Assembly: GCF_010211765.1 (NCBI RefSeq)
Contig: NZ_PDWO01000012.1
Span: forward strand, 1 to 64,000
DNA length: 64,000 bases
DNA from: Pseudoxanthomonas kaohsiungensis
GTDB lineage: Bacteria > Pseudomonadota > Gammaproteobacteria > Xanthomonadales > Xanthomonadaceae
Reading direction: 5' to 3'
Below, piece after piece: positions 12,006 through 41,140 of the stretch. The notes under the pieces are model-generated. The model was not told the DNA's origin. It saw nothing but the letters and a program-made list of their open reading frames with translations, and searched no databases. The position numbers and the translations under genes are program-made. Numbering within the stretch: position 1 is the first letter of the stretch; every line of letters begins with the position of its first letter.

Positions 12006-12161
12006 GGCGGGGAAAGCGGCCGGCACCCTGGCGGCCACGATCGCAGGCACGGCGGCCCGTGAAGGATGCAACCGCAACTGGGGGGCGTCCGACGATCACG
12101 CCCAACCCCGTTTTCCAGCCCGGCGCGTTTGCAACTCCCGTCCAACCCACGGGAGTCCGCC

Positions 12162-13970
12162 ATGCGCCGTACCGCAACGCCCCTCCACCCGGCCCGCCAG
12201 GGCGCCGTCCTGCTGATGCTGGCCCTGGCAGCGACCTTGGCCGGCTGCCGCTCGACCGCACCGTCGGGCGGCACCGATGCCGCGGCATCCGCCGCCCCGG
12301 CGATCGCGCCGGCCGGCGCCGCCGCGATCCCGCCCGCGCAGGCGCACGCGATCACCGAATCCAGGGCACGTGCGCGCCATGCGCAGGAGAAGGAAGCCGC
12401 GCGCGCCGTCGTCCACGCCGCGGCGCCTTCCCCGCCGCCCGTGGCCGATGCCGCCATGCAGCGCGCGTTCGTCGCGGCCGCTCCGGCCACCGCCGTGCAC
12501 ATGCCGTTCGCGGCAACGGAACCCGCCAACACCGAGCGGTACGAGAATCGCGACGACAACCCGGTGCAGCGCGCCAGCGAGCAGCCGGTTTCGACGTTCT
12601 CCATCGACGTGGACACCGGCAGTTACGCCAACGTGCGGCGGATGCTGCGCGAGGGCATGCGCCCGCCGGCCGACGCGGTGCGCGTGGAGGAGTTCCTCAA
12701 CTACTTCAGCTACGGCCATCCTGTGCCGGCGTCGCGCGAGGTGCCGTTCCGGGTGACCACCGAACTGGCGCCCTCGCCATGGAACCCCAAGCGGCAGCTG
12801 CTGATGGTCGGGATCAAGGGCTACGACGTGCCCAAGGCCACGCTGCCGCCGGCCAGCCTGGTCTTCCTGGTCGACACCTCCGGCTCGATGGAATCGCCCG
12901 ACAAGCTGCCGCTGCTCAAGCAGGCGTTCGCCCAGCTGGTGCCGCAGCTGCGGGCGCAGGACCGGGTGTCGATCGTGGTCTATGCCGGCTCGGCCGGCCT
13001 GGTGCTGCCGCCGACCCCGGGCGATCGCCACGACGAGATCCTCGCCGCGCTCGAGCGCCTGCAGGCCGGCGGCAGCACCAATGGCGGCGACGGCATCGCC
13101 CTGGCCTACGCGACGGCGCGGCAGGCCTTCGTCGACGGCGGCGTCAACCGGATCCTGCTGGCCACCGACGGCGACTTCAACGTCGGCACCGTGGACCGTG
13201 GCGCACTGGAAACGCTGGTCGCCGACCAGCGCCGGTCCGGGATCGCGCTGTCCACGCTCGGCTTCGGCCAGGGCAACTACAACGACGCGATGGCCGAGCG
13301 CCTGGCCGACGCCGGCGATGGCAACCACGCCTACATCGACACGCCGGAGGAAGCGCGCAAGGTGCTGGTCGAACAGATGCAGGCCACGCTGCTGACGATC
13401 GCCAACGACGTGAAGGTGCAGATCGAGTTCAACCCGGCGCAGGTGGCCGAATACCGGCTGATCGGCTACGAAAACCGGATGCTGGCGCGGGAAGACTTCG
13501 CCAACGACCGGGTCGATGCCGGCGACATCGGCGCCGGCCACGAGGTGACGGCGCTGTACGAGATCGCGCTGGCCGGCTCCGGCGGGGAACGGCTGCCGCC
13601 GTTGCGCTACGCCGCCGCCGCGCAGGGCAGCTCCGCGCGCGACGGCGAACTGGCCCACCTGCGCCTGCGCTACAAGCTGCCGGGCCAGGAGCGCAGTCGC
13701 CTGATCGAGACGCCGGTGCTGCGCTCGTCGCTGCAGCCAGAACCGGGCGCCTCGCTGCGCTTCGCCGCGGCGGTCGCCGCGTACGCCGACCTGCTGCGCG
13801 GCGGCACGAACGTGGAAGGCTGGGACTGGGACGACGTGGCCGCCAGCGCACGCGCCACGCTGGGCGGGGACCGCTGGGGCCTGCGCCGGGAATTCGTCGA
13901 GCTGGTCGAGTCGGCGCGCGAGGTGACGTCGGCCGAACCGTCGGCCGCGGCGGCCATCGCGGCGGACTGA
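12162..13970 (+). CDS. VWA-domain lipoprotein (YfbK-like)
   Basis: 602 residues. A lipoprotein signal ends in LAATLAGC, so the mature protein begins at a lipidated Cys and sits in the envelope. A long Ala/Pro-rich stretch follows, then the von_Willebrand N-terminal domain (STFSIDVDTGSYANVRRML), a VWA domain with MIDAS motif DTSGS at 238-242, and a C-terminal DUF3520-type region. Homologues such as E. coli YfbK are poorly characterised metal-dependent adhesion-type proteins. The ATG at 12162 is backed by GGGAG about 7 nt upstream. The Met at 12066 would bury the signal peptide and is rejected. Confidence 0.85.
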   Translation: MRRTATPLHPARQGAVLLMLALAATLAGCRSTAPSGGTDAAASAAPAIAPAGAAAIPPAQAHAITESRARARHAQEKEAARAVVHAAAPSPPPVADAAMQRAFVAAAPATAVHMPFAATEPANTERYENRDDNPVQRASEQPVSTFSIDVDTGSYANVRRMLREGMRPPADAVRVEEFLNYFSYGHPVPASREVPFRVTTELAPSPWNPKRQLLMVGIKGYDVPKATLPPASLVFLVDTSGSMESPDKLPLLKQAFAQLVPQLRAQDRVSIVVYAGSAGLVLPPTPGDRHDEILAALERLQAGGSTNGGDGIALAYATARQAFVDGGVNRILLATDGDFNVGTVDRGALETLVADQRRSGIALSTLGFGQGNYNDAMAERLADAGDGNHAYIDTPEEARKVLVEQMQATLLTIANDVKVQIEFNPAQVAEYRLIGYENRMLAREDFANDRVDAGDIGAGHEVTALYEIALAGSGGERLPPLRYAAAAQGSSARDGELAHLRLRYKLPGQERSRLIETPVLRSSLQPEPGASLRFAAAVAAYADLLRGGTNVEGWDWDDVAASARATLGGDRWGLRREFVELVESAREVTSAEPSAAAAIAAD

Positions 13971-14128
13971 GGACGCGACGGCCACGCAGGCGATGCGTGG
14001 CCTGTTCGCAGACATAACCGCATCAGTGCACGTGCAAGGGGCATACGGAAATGTGGCTGCAACTGCAATCTCAACCGCAACCACAAGCGCAAGTGCAAGT
14101 GCATCGGCTCCGGGAGGGGCCGCCGCGC

Positions 14129-14259
14129 CCCGGGGCCATGGCCCACCCTTCGGGACGACATCCTGTCTTTACGAAGGGCCGTGGCACATCCCTGTGCCAC
14201 TTGGTCCATGGCCCCGGGACACGGCGGCCTCTGCAAGTTTTGGGGTCGTGGCTTCGATC
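14129..14259 (+). repeat. Dispersed three-stem element, copy A
   Basis: Outer arms 14129-14145 and 14202-14218 pair over 16 of 17 positions (CCCGGGGCCATGG / CCATGGCCCCGGG plus CCA). Inside are two hairpins: CCCTTCG...CGAAGGG (14146-14177) and GTGGCACA-TCCC-TGTGCCAC (14181-14200). A downstream tail GGGTCGTGGCTTCGATC (14243-14259) is also conserved. A second copy lies in opposite orientation at 39265-39403 with the same core but different outer arms. Short ORFs translated through it are artefacts. Confidence 0.85.
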
Positions 14260-14375
14260 AGGCGCTTGCAGGATCAAACGCTGGACCGACAGGCCTGCTG
14301 CGGCGCGGGCGCTTTGGCGTTGCTCTTGCGCTGCTTCGCTTGCGTCGAGCGAAGCAACGACCTGCACGCGCCCGA

Positions 14376-14486
14376 GGGCGGCGTCCTGTCGCATTGGGGG
14401 TCAAGCGGCCATGGATGGCCGCGGCCGCGAAGTGAGGCAGGGATGCCGGCCTGAGCGGTGACCCCCGATGCGGCAGGGCGCTGCCC
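14376..14486 (+). repeat. Long G-U-tolerant inverted repeat
   Basis: Arms 14376-14403 and 14459-14486 (28 nt each) match at 24 positions; all four exceptions become G-U pairs in a + strand transcript, so the RNA stem would be unbroken. The 55-nt interior holds a hairpin GCGGCCA-TGGA-TGGCCGC (14405-14422). The T-run at 14505-14510 follows at a distance. It may act as a terminator for the VWA gene or as a structured repeat. Confidence 0.7.
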
Positions 14487-14576
14487 CCTCACCGAGGCCC
14501 GCGCTTTTTTCTGTTGCGGTTGCGGTGGAGGTTGCGGCGGAGGCGAACCCGACCGGTCCGCCAAGTCACCCCGACC

Positions 14577-15521
14577 TCAACCCAGCAGGTGCTCCAGCAC
14601 CGCCATCCGCACCGCCACGCCGTTGGCGACCTGGCGCAGCACCCACGACTGCGGGCCGTCGGCGACCTCGTCGGTGATCTCCACGCCGCGGTTGATCGGC
14701 CCCGGGTGCAGCACCGCCGCATCGGGCGCCGCGCGGCGCAGGCGCTCCACGGTCAGCCCATAGTGGTCGTGGTATTCCTCGAGCGACGGCACCAGGCCCT
14801 CCTCCATCCGCTCGCGCTGCAGGCGCAGCATCATCACCGCGTCGACCCCTTCGAGCATCGCGTCGAAATCGGTGCCGACCACGCAGCCGCCCGTGGTCGC
14901 CTCGTCCGGAAGCAGCGGCCGCGGGCCGCAGATGCGGATCTCGCCGGCGCCGAGGGTACGCAACGCCTGCAGGTCCGAACGGGCCACGCGCGAATGCCGG
15001 ACATCGCCGACGATCAGCACCTTCAGCTTTGAGAAATCGCTGCCCTTGGCCTGGCGCAGGGTCAGCATGTCGAGCAGGCCCTGGGTCGGATGCGCGCTGC
15101 GGCCGTCGCCGGCGTTGACCAGCGCCGTACCCTCGCCGGCCACGTCGGCCAGGCGCTGCACCGCGCCGTCTTCGGGGTGGCGGATGACGAAGCCGCGCAC
15201 GCCCATCGCCTCGAGGTTCTTGAGCGTGTCGCGCGCGGTCTCGCCCTTGCGGGTGGACGAGGTCGACGCGTCGAAGTTGAGTACGTCCGCGCCCAGGCGC
15301 TGGGCGGCGAGCTGGAACGAACTGCGCGTGCGCGTGGACGGCTCGAAGAACAGCGTGCACACCGCGCTGCCGGCCAGCACCGTGCGCTTGCCGACCCGTC
15401 CGACCGCGGCATCGCGGATCTGGCCGGCACGGTCCAGCAGCTGCAGCAGGGTGCTGCGCGGCAGGCCTTCCAGGGTCAGCAGGTGGCGGAGGCGGCCGTC
15501 GGAGGCGAGTTGGGGCGTCAT
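14577..15521 (-). CDS. pyrB: Aspartate carbamoyltransferase catalytic subunit
   Basis: 314 residues. The carbamoyl-phosphate loop FFEPSTRTRSSFQLA is at 58-72, with GDGRSAHPTQGLLD in the middle and HPGPINRGVEI near the C-terminus (aspartate domain). It makes N-carbamoyl-aspartate, the first committed step of pyrimidine synthesis. No regulatory subunit (pyrI) or adjacent pyrC is visible. The ATG at 15521 (MTPQLASDGRLRHLLTLEGL) is chosen by family fit; the frame stays open upstream into ruvX. It lies 34 nt downstream of ruvX, in the order algH-ruvX-pyrB that is common in gamma-proteobacteria. Confidence 0.92.
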   Translation of the reverse strand: MTPQLASDGRLRHLLTLEGLPRSTLLQLLDRAGQIRDAAVGRVGKRTVLAGSAVCTLFFEPSTRTRSSFQLAAQRLGADVLNFDASTSSTRKGETARDTLKNLEAMGVRGFVIRHPEDGAVQRLADVAGEGTALVNAGDGRSAHPTQGLLDMLTLRQAKGSDFSKLKVLIVGDVRHSRVARSDLQALRTLGAGEIRICGPRPLLPDEATTGGCVVGTDFDAMLEGVDAVMMLRLQRERMEEGLVPSLEEYHDHYGLTVERLRRAAPDAAVLHPGPINRGVEITDEVADGPQSWVLRQVANGVAVRMAVLEHLLG

Positions 15522-15555
15522 TGGGTGGCGTGCTCGGGGAGTGGACGGAAGCGTG

Positions 15556-16032
15556 CTAGAGCGGCGTGGCGTCTTCGGGCGCAGCGAGCCAGCGTTCGAC
15601 GATGACCGCCGCCGCGGCGGCGTCGAGGGTGGCCGCATCGCGGCGGCGGCGATTGCCCGCGGCGCGGTCGCGGGCGAAGCGCTGCGCCGCCTCCACCGAG
15701 CTGGAGCGTTCGTCGACCATCACCACCGGCAGGCGGAAGCGCGCCTTCAGCTCGCCGGCGAAGGCCCGCGCGCGACGACGGATCGGCTGGTCGCCGCCGT
15801 CCAGGGTCATCGGATCGCCAACCACCAGGCCGGCCGGGCGCCAGTCGCGGTGCAGCCGTTCGATCGAGGTCCAGTCCGGCCCACCTTCGCGCACGTCGAC
15901 CACCGCGACCGCGCGCGCACCACCGAGCGCGCTGCCGACGGCCACGCCGATCCGGCGCGCGCCGACATCGAAGCCGAGCACGATCGCATCGGCCGCGGGA
16001 TGCGCGGGCACCGGCGCGGAAGGCTCAGGCAT
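15556..16032 (-). CDS. ruvX: Pre-16S rRNA nuclease / Holliday junction resolvase-like protein
   Basis: 158 residues, YqgF/RuvX family with an RNase H fold: first acidic motif [15 protein letters not shown] (~18-32), then [13 protein letters not shown] and a late Asp in [20 protein letters not shown]. The family processes 16S rRNA ends and was earlier proposed as a resolvase. It overlaps the end of algH by 8 nt, so the two are translationally coupled, and is followed by pyrB. Confidence 0.88.
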
Positions 16033-38573: not shown

Positions 38574-39035
38574 ATGGCCCTGCTGACCTGGCAAGACGAC
38601 CTCAACACCGGCATCGAAGTGATCGACGACCAGCATCGCCGGATCGTGTCGATGATCAACCAGCTGCACCAGGCCCAGGCCCGCGGCGTGGCGCTGGTGG
38701 TGGCCGACGTGATCGACGAGCTGGTCGACTACACCCTGTCCCACTTCGCCTTCGAGGAAGAGTTGATGGAGGAGGCCGGCTACCCGTTCTGCGCCGCGCA
38801 CCGACGGGTGCACGAGGTGTTCACCAAGCGGGTCAGCGAGTACCGCCTGCGCTTCCAGGCCGGCGAGGACGTGGTCGACGAACTCAAGAGCATGCTCTCG
38901 CGCTGGCTGTTCAACCACATCCGCAACGACGACCGCGCCTACTCCGAGCAGGTACGCCGGCACCTGGACCGCTTCGCCCGCGAGCACGAGCAGGGCGGTT
39001 GGCTGGCGCGCACGGTGAAGCGGCTGTTCCATTGA
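38574..39035 (+). CDS. Bacteriohemerythrin
   Basis: 153 residues, four-helix hemerythrin. All seven di-iron ligands of the family can be placed: His21 (DDQHRRI), His57 and Glu61 ([10 protein letters not shown]), His76 and His80 ([11 protein letters not shown]), His115 and Asp120 (NHIRNDD). It binds O2 reversibly and may supply or sense oxygen, or handle NO. The last ~25 residues are basic. The FNR-type site upstream suggests induction when oxygen is low. The ATG at 38574 is the only sensible start. Confidence 0.92.
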
Positions 39036-39264: not shown

Positions 39265-39403
39265 GATCGAAGCCACGACCCTGACGACCACGAAGGTCGC
39301 CGCACCCTAGGCCTATGTCCCAAGTGGCACATGGATGTGCCACGGCCCTTCGTAAAGACAGGACGTCGTCCCGAAGGGTGGGACATAGGCCTAGGGTGCG
39401 GCG
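39265..39403 (-). repeat. Dispersed three-stem element, copy B
   Basis: Outer arms 39298-39322 and 39379-39403 are a perfect 25-bp inverted repeat (core CCTAGGCCTATGTCCCA). The 56-nt interior, read on the minus strand, is the same as copy A at 14146-14201 except for two bases, and keeps both inner hairpins (CCCTTCG/CGAAGGG and GTGGCACAT/ATGTGCCAC). The tail GGGTCGTGGCTTCGATC is at 39265-39281 on the minus strand. The outer arms share little sequence with copy A, yet pair perfectly. Confidence 0.88.
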
Positions 39404-39561
39404 GCCCCGTCCGAAGCCGACGCTTCGACAGGACACGGCGACCCCATCCGGGACCGACGCTTGAAAGGGCATGCTGGCCCGCCCGGATCCCGGGTTTCAA
39501 CCGAAGACGGCGGGAGCGCGAAGACTCCGGCGCCCCTGCCTGAAGCCACGACGTGCGACGC

Positions 39562-40824
39562 TCACTCCGCCGGGCGCGCGCGGACCAGCAAGAGCGCCAG
39601 CAGGGTCAATGCCGCCATCGCGCTCAGGTAGGCGCCGACGGCGGCGATGCCATGGCTGCCGGCCAGGCGCGTGGCGATGTAGGGCGCCGGCGATGCGCCG
39701 AGGATGCCGGCCAGGTTGAAGGCCAGCGACGCGCCGGTGTAGCGCACCGGCGTCGGGAACATCTCGGCCAGGATCGTTCCGCAGGGCCCGTAGGTCAGTC
39801 CCATCAGCCCCAGCCCCACGCACAGGAACAGCAGCACCTGCGCCGGATGGCCGGCGGCGAACAGCGGCTCGAACAGCAGGCCGAAAGCAATGATCCCCAG
39901 CGTGGCCAGGAGCATCGCCCGGCGCCGGCCGCTGCGGTCGGCGTAGATGGCCGACAGCGGGATGGTCGCGGCGAAGCACAGCACGCCGGCCATCTGCAGC
40001 AGCAGGAACTCCTGCCGCCCGTAGCCCAGCTGCGAGGTACCCCAGCTCAGCGCGAACACGGTCATCAGGTAGAACAGGACGAAGGTGGCCATCAGCGACA
40101 GGGTGCCGACCGCCAGCGTGCCGGCATGCCTGGTCAGCACGGTGGCCATCGGCAGGCGCTCGCGCTCGTCGCGCTCGACCGCCTTCTGGAACGCCGGCGT
40201 CTCGGTGATCCGCAGCCGCACCCACAACCCGACCAGGACCAGCGCGGCGCTGGCGACGAACGGGATGCGCCAGCCCCAGGCCATGAACTGCCCCTCGTCG
40301 AGGACCTGGGCCAGCAGCAGGAAGATGCCGGTCGAACACAGGAAGCCCAGCGGCGCCCCCAGCTGCGGGAACATCCCGTACCAGGCGCGCTTGCCCGGCG
40401 GCGCATTCTCGGTCGCCAGCAGCACCGCCCCGCCCCACTCCCCGCCCAGGCCCAGGCCCTGGCCGAACCGGCACAGCGCCAGCAGCGCCGGCGCCCAAAC
40501 GCCGATCTGTGCATAGGTCGGCAGCAGGCCGATCAGTACAGTGGAGATGCCCATGGTCAGCAGCGCCGCCACCAGGGTCGCCTTGCGCCCGACCCGGTCG
40601 CCGTAGTGGCCGAACAGCGCCGACCCCAGCGGCCGGGCGAAGAACGCCAGGGCGAAGGTCGCCAGCGACTGCAGGGTGGCCGCGGCCGGTTCGGCCGCCG
40701 GGAAGAACAGGTGCGGGAACACCAGCACCGCCGCGGTGGCGTAGATGTAGAAATCGAAGAACTCGATCGTCGTACCGATGAGGCTGGCAAACAGGATGCG
40801 GCGTGGCGAAGCAGGGGCAGTCAT
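39562..40824 (-). CDS. MHS-family MFS transporter
   Basis: 420 residues with 12 predicted helices. Metabolite:H+ symporter features are visible: SLIGTTIEFFDFYIYATAAVLVF in helix 1, GHYGDRVGRKATL between helices 2 and 3, and RFGQGLGLGGEWGGAVLLATENAPPGKRAWYGMFPQLGAPLG. Relatives carry compatible solutes, shikimate, alpha-ketoglutarate or citrate; the substrate is open. The ATG at 40824 is chosen because it begins directly before helix 1; the long N-terminal extension in this frame has no homology. Confidence 0.85.
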   Translation of the reverse strand: MTAPASPRRILFASLIGTTIEFFDFYIYATAAVLVFPHLFFPAAEPAAATLQSLATFALAFFARPLGSALFGHYGDRVGRKATLVAALLTMGISTVLIGLLPTYAQIGVWAPALLALCRFGQGLGLGGEWGGAVLLATENAPPGKRAWYGMFPQLGAPLGFLCSTGIFLLLAQVLDEGQFMAWGWRIPFVASAALVLVGLWVRLRITETPAFQKAVERDERERLPMATVLTRHAGTLAVGTLSLMATFVLFYLMTVFALSWGTSQLGYGRQEFLLLQMAGVLCFAATIPLSAIYADRSGRRRAMLLATLGIIAFGLLFEPLFAAGHPAQVLLFLCVGLGLMGLTYGPCGTILAEMFPTPVRYTGASLAFNLAGILGASPAPYIATRLAGSHGIAAVGAYLSAMAALTLLALLLVRARPAE

Positions 40825-41140
40825 CGGGAAGGGGCGCGACCGGAGGGAGGACGGGCCGATTCTGGCAGAGTCGCCGGTGCGGCAAGCGGCCGGCGGCTTC
40901 CCGGACGGCCCGCGTCGCCGCCACGGTGCAGTCCACGGATCCGGCACCCGCGCAAGCGTTGCCCTGCGGCCGCTTGACCGGCAGAATCCGCCTCGCCCCC
41001 CGTCGCATCGCGGCCGCAGCCGGCACCGCCCGCCCCCAGCCGCACGCAGAAGCATCCAACGCAGCGCCCTCTACGGGCCCGCGACGCCGCGTGCGTCGCC
41101 GCGGCCTGCCCCCCGCTTGAACGAGCAGAACGGAATCGCC
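40825..41140. other. 316-nt divergent intergenic region
   Basis: Between the MHS transporter and the RND adaptor gene. No gene, no clear palindromic operator and no REP was found. TTGACC at 40975-40980 could be a -35 for the efflux operon, but no good -10 follows at the right spacing. Confidence 0.5.

Follow-up and report, generated by a model that had tools for sequence, protein, structure and literature searches.

A high-copy dispersed element of Pseudoxanthomonas kaohsiungensis with a covarying outer stem and two GGA hairpin loops, read as a variant of the TwoAYGGAY structured RNA

Results

Copies of the element in the window

The window, that is, the whole stretch of 64,000 nucleotides of Pseudoxanthomonas kaohsiungensis under analysis, contains two intergenic regions bounded by convergent genes: copy A of the element and a diverged partner sit between a YfbK/VWA-domain gene and the gene called pyrB, and copy B sits between a hemerythrin-domain gene and a transporter gene (Table 1). 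A preliminary description of this DNA had reported two copies in opposite orientation, with a common core showing two differences. Both copies are real, at 14129-14218 and about 39310-39391, and the core is indeed common, as a search with a 46-nt core pattern taken from copy A recovers copy B at 2 mismatches (shuffle expectation 0.00). The pairing of the outer arms was also correctly described, at 16 of 17 positions in copy A and 25 of 25 in copy B; that the arms differ almost completely was an overstatement, as those of A and B agree at about half of 20 aligned positions. The element is larger than first described: the covariance model gives a length of 124 nt, with weaker similarity out to about 165 nt. 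The window holds a third, more diverged copy in addition to the two known, and this partner forms with copy A a divergent pair on opposite strands, with a gap of 136 nt; for copy B no partner element was found. The 17-nt tail reported as shared (GATCGAAGCCACGACC) is so, but in the RNA it lies 5' and not downstream, the constrained strand being opposite to the one described at first. A count of the CATCCNTG hairpin across the window gave 4 matches, 3 of them inside the elements.

Table 1. Genes, element copies and element parts in the two intergenic regions of the window
Feature	Position	Strand	Remarks
YfbK/VWA-domain gene	12066-13970	plus	Pfam YfbK_C, vWF_A, VWA
Element copy A	14111-14234	minus (RNA strand)	outer stem, hairpin A and hairpin B; R1 136.9 bits, R2 127.6 bits; RNA fold -94.3 kcal/mol, z -8.93
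Outer stem 3' arm, copy A	14118-14142 (ends approximate)	minus	alignment A2 columns 101-124
Hairpin B of copy A with lower stem	14146-14178	minus	plus-strand CCCTTCG (14146-14152) pairs with CGAAGGG (14172-14178)
Apex of hairpin B, copy A, GACAGGAUGUC	14157-14167	minus	includes CAGGAUG, which fits the repeat CAGGA(U/A/C)G of CsrB
Hairpin A of copy A, GUGGCACAGGGAUGUGCCAC	14181-14200	minus	includes ACAGGGAUGU, the core of the CsrA SELEX consensus RUACARGGAUGU
Outer stem 5' arm, copy A	14205-14229 (ends approximate)	minus	alignment A2 columns 6-30
Partner of copy A, diverged subfamily	14371-14493	plus	R1 68 bits, R2 92.6 bits; fold z -7.68
Hairpin A of partner, GCGGCCAUGGAUGGCCGC	14405-14422	plus	loop AUGGAU
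Hairpin B apex of partner, GGCAGGGAUGCC	14436-14447	plus	loop AGGGAU
Aspartate/ornithine carbamoyltransferase family gene (called pyrB)	14577-15638	minus	Pfam OTCace_N, OTCace
Hemerythrin-domain gene	38574-39035	plus	Pfam Hemerythrin
Element copy B	39290-39413	plus (RNA strand)	R1 139.1 bits, R2 129 bits; fold z -11.62
Hairpin A of copy B, GUGGCACAUGGAUGUGCCAC	39324-39343	plus	loop AUGGAU
Hairpin B apex of copy B, GACAGGACGUC	39357-39367	plus	CAGGACG
MFS/sugar transporter gene	39562-41055	minus	Pfam Sugar_tr, MFS_1

Copy number and arrangement in the genome

The preliminary description had predicted many covarying copies, and these were found. A BLAST-type search of the same genome returned 40 clear places, together with 6 short self-matches of arms; the copies differ in their outer arms, which remain paired, so that the unpaired arms which would have spoken against a folded element did not appear. 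Model R1, built from these 40 copies and applied with 150 scored candidates, identified 69 copies on the GGA strand (E <= 7e-7); extracted loci added 9 matches, located at 8 places. Model R2 identified at least 82 copies (E <= 2e-13), with none on the complementary strand at E <= 1e-5 among 150 candidates scored; the E-values of these models are rough. Eight 20-kb stretches chosen regardless of the element contained 0 copies, where 3 to 4 would be expected from 82 in 3.76 Mb.

Neighbouring copies are mostly arranged head to head. Within 400 nt, 29 of 31 neighbouring pairs are divergent (minus then plus), and the 2 same-strand pairs belong both to one triplet; in other genomes all 12 loci with two matches are divergent, one of the matches being cut at a contig end, but three neighbours on the same strand occur in one genome (G006). 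In 39 pairs compared, the stretch between the two members is 47-493 nt long and in some cases contains GTAG REPs. At one place in the genome (C44:96088-96622, locus L078) three nearly identical same-strand copies stand in tandem with a period of about 206 nt; over the length of the element, two of the three do not differ at all.

The gene context was drawn from our own codon-usage gene caller, which is unvalidated and was used with an allowed overlap of 40 nt. On this basis all 47 sites of the first 69 copies are intergenic, in 21 convergent, 23 tandem and 3 divergent gaps. Convergent gaps are enriched relative to background gaps of at least 50 nt (21/47 against 19/112, Fisher p 5e-4) and divergent gaps are rarer (3/47 against 24/112, p 0.02), and the 3' end of the element faces the 3' end of a gene in 52 of 69 cases. 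Hexamer periodicity, e.g. (GTTGCG)n, is more frequent in the 3' flank, where the lag-6 score reaches 0.8 or more in 7/69 elements against 2/69 on the 5' flank, the respective means over the 69 elements being 0.568 and 0.471.

Pairing is kept while the outer stem changes

Copies A and B fold far better as RNA than their shuffles, with z-scores of -8.9 and -11.6 on the GGA strand and of -9.2 and -11.0 on the other; as both strands fold almost equally well, the folding energy alone cannot tell which strand is meant. When the 40 copies were aligned without a model, RNAalifold gave 36 pairs, 20 of which have two-sided changes, and a single outer pair is occupied by CG in 14 copies, GC in 12, AU in 9, UA in 4 and UG in 1. 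In alignment A2, which comprises 74 distinct rows from this genome, 98.1% of the cells are paired and 30 of 36 pairs show two-sided changes, with 545 two-sided cells against a shuffled mean of 143, while slid controls are at most 50% paired. In the outer stem, 22 of 23 pairs change on both sides and 98.8% of the cells are paired; A2 was fitted with a model, yet its outer stem is gap-free in 70 of 74 rows. These cell counts are non-independent events, since paralogues share ancestry, a point that counts in stem-diverse representatives address in part. Clearly, the long outer stem changes its sequence while keeping its pairing, and it encloses two hairpins.

A distinct line of evidence resulted from the wobble pairs. 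The outer stem of the 70 gap-free rows has 1497 Watson-Crick, 98 G-U, 0 A-C and 15 other cells, and in 13 representatives below 70% stem identity the counts are 12 G-U and 0 A-C. The same tendency is observed when the register is set from Watson-Crick pairs only, both in the 40 BLAST copies (24 G-U against 4 A-C over 16 pairs) and in 34 elements of other genomes (36 against 2 over 22 pairs); short forms from other genera show it less strongly (21 against 7). The inner hairpins are without strand bias, with 0 G-U and 3 A-C cells in hairpin A and 11 G-U and 19 A-C in hairpin B, 15 of these 19 falling at column pair 59/96, where the assumed pairing may be wrong. A control on 57 REPs of the same genome, which is small and of low power, gave 3 G-T and 4 A-C in 399 cells. 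In a cruciform, a G-T of one strand corresponds to an A-C of the other, hence no bias is expected from it, nor would an RNA of the opposite strand give the one observed: the outer stem is constrained as one strand, which points to RNA. Selection on a folded RNA, one of the two possibilities first proposed, is thus sustained by a covariation far above that of shuffles and slid controls and by this bias, and the cruciform is not.

Two loops with an invariant GGA

The loops behave in the opposite way to the arms. GGA is kept in 147 of 148 loops of the 74 distinct copies (73/74 in loop A, where the single exception reads AGGGCU, and 74/74 in loop B), and the stems beside these loops change with compensation. 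On the GGA strand hairpin A reads GUGGC-ACA(N)GGAUGU-GCCAC or much like it; its loop has ANGGA with U as the N in 42 copies, G in 27, A in 3 and C in 1. Hairpin B has the form GACAGGA(U/C)GUC or longer ones such as CGGACAGGGAUGUCCG, with a five-letter CAGGA loop in 48/74 and an ANGGA loop in 26/74. A tandem G-A is found in hairpin B, G-A at columns 63/89 in 38/74 rows and A-G at columns 64/88 in 39/74, and the rows without it have mostly Watson-Crick pairs at those columns.

For CsrA, the available text of PMC7652899 gives RUACARGGAUGU as the SELEX consensus, CAGGA(U/A/C)G as the repeat of CsrB and ANGGAN as a hexaloop. Motifs of the consensus type, ACARGGAUGU and CAGGA(U/C)G, are present in the hairpin loops of the element, with about 28 nt between their GGA motifs: copy A has ACAGGGAUGU and CAGGAUG, and copy B has ACAUGGAUGU and CAGGACG. 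Judged by their letters, both loops look like docking sites for CsrA/RsmA. What counts against such a reading is that hairpin A has 8 pairs, unlike most SELEX winners, which have four or fewer contiguous pairs (PMC7652899, same portion).

Gain, loss and distribution

At both window sites the element is absent in most congeneric genomes. In the VWA/pyrB gap R2 elements occur in 2 of 17 congeneric loci, namely that of the genome under study and that of G011, which has another subfamily; one locus (L204) breaks off just past the gene, too early for a judgement, and another (L207) may contain, by eye, a decayed copy. In the hemerythrin gap the element is present in 1 of 14 loci, counted irrespective of gap completeness, and two of these loci are shorter. 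Had the arms been mere target sequence, they should appear at such sites. In fact, 11-mers of arm B occur in 0 of the other 13 hemerythrin-gap loci, and of the palindromic part of arm A a single 11-mer occurs in 1 of 16; G+C-rich 11-mers of the outer flank of arm A are present in several other loci. The near absence of arm 11-mers from other loci indicates that the arms belong to the element and not to the target. As seen at these two sites, copies are gained and lost like those of a mobile repeat; across the genome they come mostly as divergent pairs. The earlier suggestion of a mobile palindromic element holds in part, as far as this gain and loss between congeners is concerned.

With R2 at E <= 1e-6, 19 of 41 genomes (the one under study and 40 relatives) have matches, and copy numbers within the genus range from 0 (as in G009 and G010) to at least 86, which equals the number of candidates scored. 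At E <= 1e-8, where the scoring stopped at 17 candidates in each genome, matches occur in 41 of the 198 family genomes and in 16 of 54 genera. The matching records include Luteimonas, Lysobacter, Pseudoxanthomonas, Vulcaniibacterium, Thermomonas, Stenotrophomonas and Xanthomonas; 22 of 40 named genomes match, these 40 having been hand-chosen from 80 pyrB loci. In G004 some matches begin on one of the first four bases of their contig (C59:1-124, C44:2-125, C29:4-127), as if the repeat broke the assembly, so that copy numbers there may be undercounts. In Xanthomonas dyei (L231) and X. nasturtii (L244) the element lies downstream of one and the same gene, on the same strand, which we take to be eda (KDPG aldolase), and this is possibly a conserved single locus.

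Short forms extend further. Model R3, built from 9 such elements, has matches in 37 of the 229 genomes sampled across the class and in 32 of 195 genera. The 33 matches from 12 search loci and 20 extracted stretches are 94.7% paired and covary likewise, with GGA in 32/33 loops A and 33/33 loops B; minimum-energy folds show two GGA hairpin loops in 18 of 33 short forms, compared to 30 of 35 R2 elements outside the genome under study. A plasmid BLAST search with one short-form element of another genus gave no match.

Relation to known RNA families and repeats

In the window no Rfam family reaches its gathering score, and the preliminary description knew of no named family that would fit. TwoAYGGAY (RF01731, clan CL00106) does fit the architecture and matches sister copies of A and B, while these two remain unmatched. 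Searched in 25 genomes, RF01731 has matches in 11, over the cut-off in 7, the best of which (50.9 bits, in G002) is also an R2 element; in 14 control genomes there are 0 matches. The genome under study has 5 matches, all among the 82 R2 elements and on the same strand: only C1:28879, with 43.3 bits, is above the cut-off of 43, the four others have 34-42 bits, and the next best (C2:25271, 42.1 bits) is of full length. On an element of another genus RF01731 gives a sub-threshold 31.4 bits. Copies A and B have no RF01731 row up to E 10 in small-stretch searches, and the partner has none over gathering or in small stretches; clan overlap could mask a weak row for the partner, and could hide weak rows in some of these searches, not in all of those covering copies A and B. 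Copies A and B thus appear tied to RF01731 via a chain that runs from R1 and R2 to the sister copies, not by a direct score.

The element resembles TwoAYGGAY, which also belongs to Gammaproteobacteria, in having two hairpins with AYGGAY/ANGGAN loops, a tandem G-A in one stem and an enclosing stem that is poorly conserved in sequence. These three structural features, together with the matches of the sister copies, are why we call the repeat a TwoAYGGAY variant, and in our reading the family is either RF01731 itself, in a high-copy form, or closely akin to it. The differences from RF01731 are that its model leaves copies A and B unmatched and that the hairpin B loop is often the shorter CAGGA. 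TwoAYGGAY was listed by Weinberg et al. in 2010 (PMC2864571) as a probable RNA of the human gut, gamma-Proteobacteria and Clostridiales, with no function given in the available text, and in 2014 Gardner and Eldai proposed that it binds CsrA and described it with the tandem G-A (PMC4333381, available text). High copy number, divergent pairs and gain and loss of the element are absent from the descriptions in the accessible portions of PMC4333381 and PMC2864571. What is new here is the copy number, the pairing, the gain and loss, the strand evidence and the relatives across the class. A literature search by motif strings returned nothing relevant by title, and one on CsrA with repeats, sponges or dispersed elements, restricted to open-licence papers, returned no such element by title or abstract start; PMC2267715 is without the terms Xanthomonas, Xylella, CsrA and Rfam.

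GGA in hairpin loops is a feature that the element has in common with CsrB, CsrC, RsmV, RsmX, RsmY and RsmZ. CsrB-type sRNAs, which sequester CsrA, are single or few-copy genes with more sites each, whereas the element has two sites per copy, tens of copies and no promoter found in the window regions. Scores at chance level were obtained for RsmV (12.5 bits, cut-off 100), confined to hairpin A of copy A, and for PrrB_RsmZ (8.1 bits, cut-off 44), on the partner. RsmU of Xanthomonas campestris, to which the element is likened by description, is an RNA with GGA hairpins that comes from a gene 3' region, but it is a single locus downstream of comEA and has been reported in Xanthomonas only. Ysr224 (RF02770), an sRNA of Yersinia, gives sub-threshold matches (best 38 bits, cut-off 70) in 7 of 12 loci (L251, L252, L253, L258, L260, L261 and L270), where it meets short-form elements on their complementary strand; its consensus has the loops CAUCCAUG and CAUCCCUG, which are complementary to GGA loops, and it may be a relative seen from the opposite strand. 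Two more sub-threshold matches were recorded: the MIR533 'microRNA' model of Rfam has 46.5 bits (cut-off 80) on an element of an uncultured Stenotrophomonas (L119:42-159), which reflects either palindrome similarity or a bacterial sequence behind the MIR533 family, and the Pseudomonas rnk leader has 36.8 bits (cut-off 55) on L001:2006-2109, minus strand.

Discussion

We consider it probable that the repeat, dispersed in many copies, belongs to the structured RNAs of the TwoAYGGAY kind, and that it would be transcribed, clamped by CsrA/RsmA and act as scattered decoys. The GGA strand would be transcribed at least partly from the 3' regions of genes, one CsrA/RsmA dimer could clamp both hairpins of a copy, and the at least 82 copies, or about 164 sites, would lower or buffer the free CsrA/RsmA. 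The genome under study encodes three proteins of the CsrA family, a canonical CsrA and two that are CsrA-like. One of the three, at L045 (C77:5027-5185), is a fusion in which a CsrA-like domain is joined with that of a dATP/dGTP pyrophosphohydrolase (PF02599, PF04447). According to the available text of PMC7694677, no CsrB or RsmX/Y/Z homologue was found in Xanthomonas genomes, and RsmU, a 3'-UTR-derived RNA of X. campestris, binds RsmA and still bound it with all GGA replaced. This survival of binding means that GGA loops alone do not prove binding.

As for transcription, neither window intergenic region has a sigma-70-like promoter, consensus scans being weak at 71% G+C. An explanation of the divergent pairs as promoters was rejected, because by eye nothing is conserved 5' beyond GATCGAAGCCACGACC and the middles vary between 47 and 493 nt, and the members of one pair, only 47 nt apart, leave little room for two promoters. 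A simple 3'-UTR of the upstream gene was also set aside, as the orientation fits only 48 of 69 elements; the other 21 do not share the direction of the gene on their 5' side, and read-through from it cannot explain them.

Other explanations were weighed against this RNA decoy. The repeat might be REP-like mobile DNA, that is, a hairpin of single-stranded DNA, one strand of which is recognised by a transposase, HUH-type or other; its loops would then be recognition letters and CsrA irrelevant. REP, BIME and REPIN sequences are likewise dispersed, extragenic and often inverted pairs of unlike members (PMC3733652, available text), and the high copy number, the intergenic head-to-head pairs (29 divergent among 31 close pairs) and the gain and loss between congeners agree with this. 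REPs as characterised in the same text are 20-40 bp long with a GTAG or CGTC tag, and a transposase link for GTAG, unlike the present three-way element of at least 124 nt with its GGA loops; the earlier statement that it is not a GTAG REP is correct, given this length, the two inner hairpins and the lack of a GTAG/CGTC end tag. The REPs of the same genome show no G-T excess in the low-power control given above. G-T is tolerated in DNA hairpins too, which favours the mobile-DNA explanation. It does not explain, however, why two loops equal CsrA motifs, why a tandem G-A occurs or why an RNA family matches the sister copies, and the element does not flank the three Y1-transposase genes of the genome; we regard it as unlikely. 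Mobilisation by a RAYT is unsupported, since a pattern check of the three Y1_Tnp loci showed one stray GGCACAT and no other element motif. Among these genes (L040, L041 and L042), those of L041 and L042 are adjoined by the GTAG REPs GTAGGAGCC and GTAGAGCCGGG, which is the usual RAYT/REP arrangement.

A 3'-end, terminating or insulating structure between convergent genes, in which the fold matters and the loops bind no protein, would account for the over-representation of convergent gaps and for the element 3' ends that face gene 3' ends. The background gaps behind the former come from the unvalidated gene caller, there is no terminator-like site and no hairpin with a T-run in either window intergenic region (0 found), and separate hairpin and A/T-run sequences adjoin some copies by eye. 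Neither the invariance of the loops nor the strand bias is expected from such a structure, and we hold it to be quite improbable. As to a cruciform, or a nucleoid or recombination site acting as double-stranded DNA, the long inverted repeats and fast-evolving arms are what it would have, but the 98 G-U against 0 A-C of the outer stem make it very improbable indeed.

Returning to the RNA decoy, a wider reading is put forward tentatively, and we would ourselves call it doubtful: RNAs of the TwoAYGGAY type could be, instead of ordinary sRNA genes, a mobile, high-copy class of CsrA-decoy repeats across Gammaproteobacteria, of which, in Xanthomonadaceae, at least about 160 sites would replace the CsrB/RsmY-type sRNAs and set the free RsmA. 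If this is true, the copy number of a repeat would itself tune a global regulator. The presence of tens of near-consensus CsrA sites per genome bears on the function of TwoAYGGAY and on RsmA antagonism outside Xanthomonas, and, if the copies titrate CsrA, the repeat family would amount to a tunable buffer on a global regulator.
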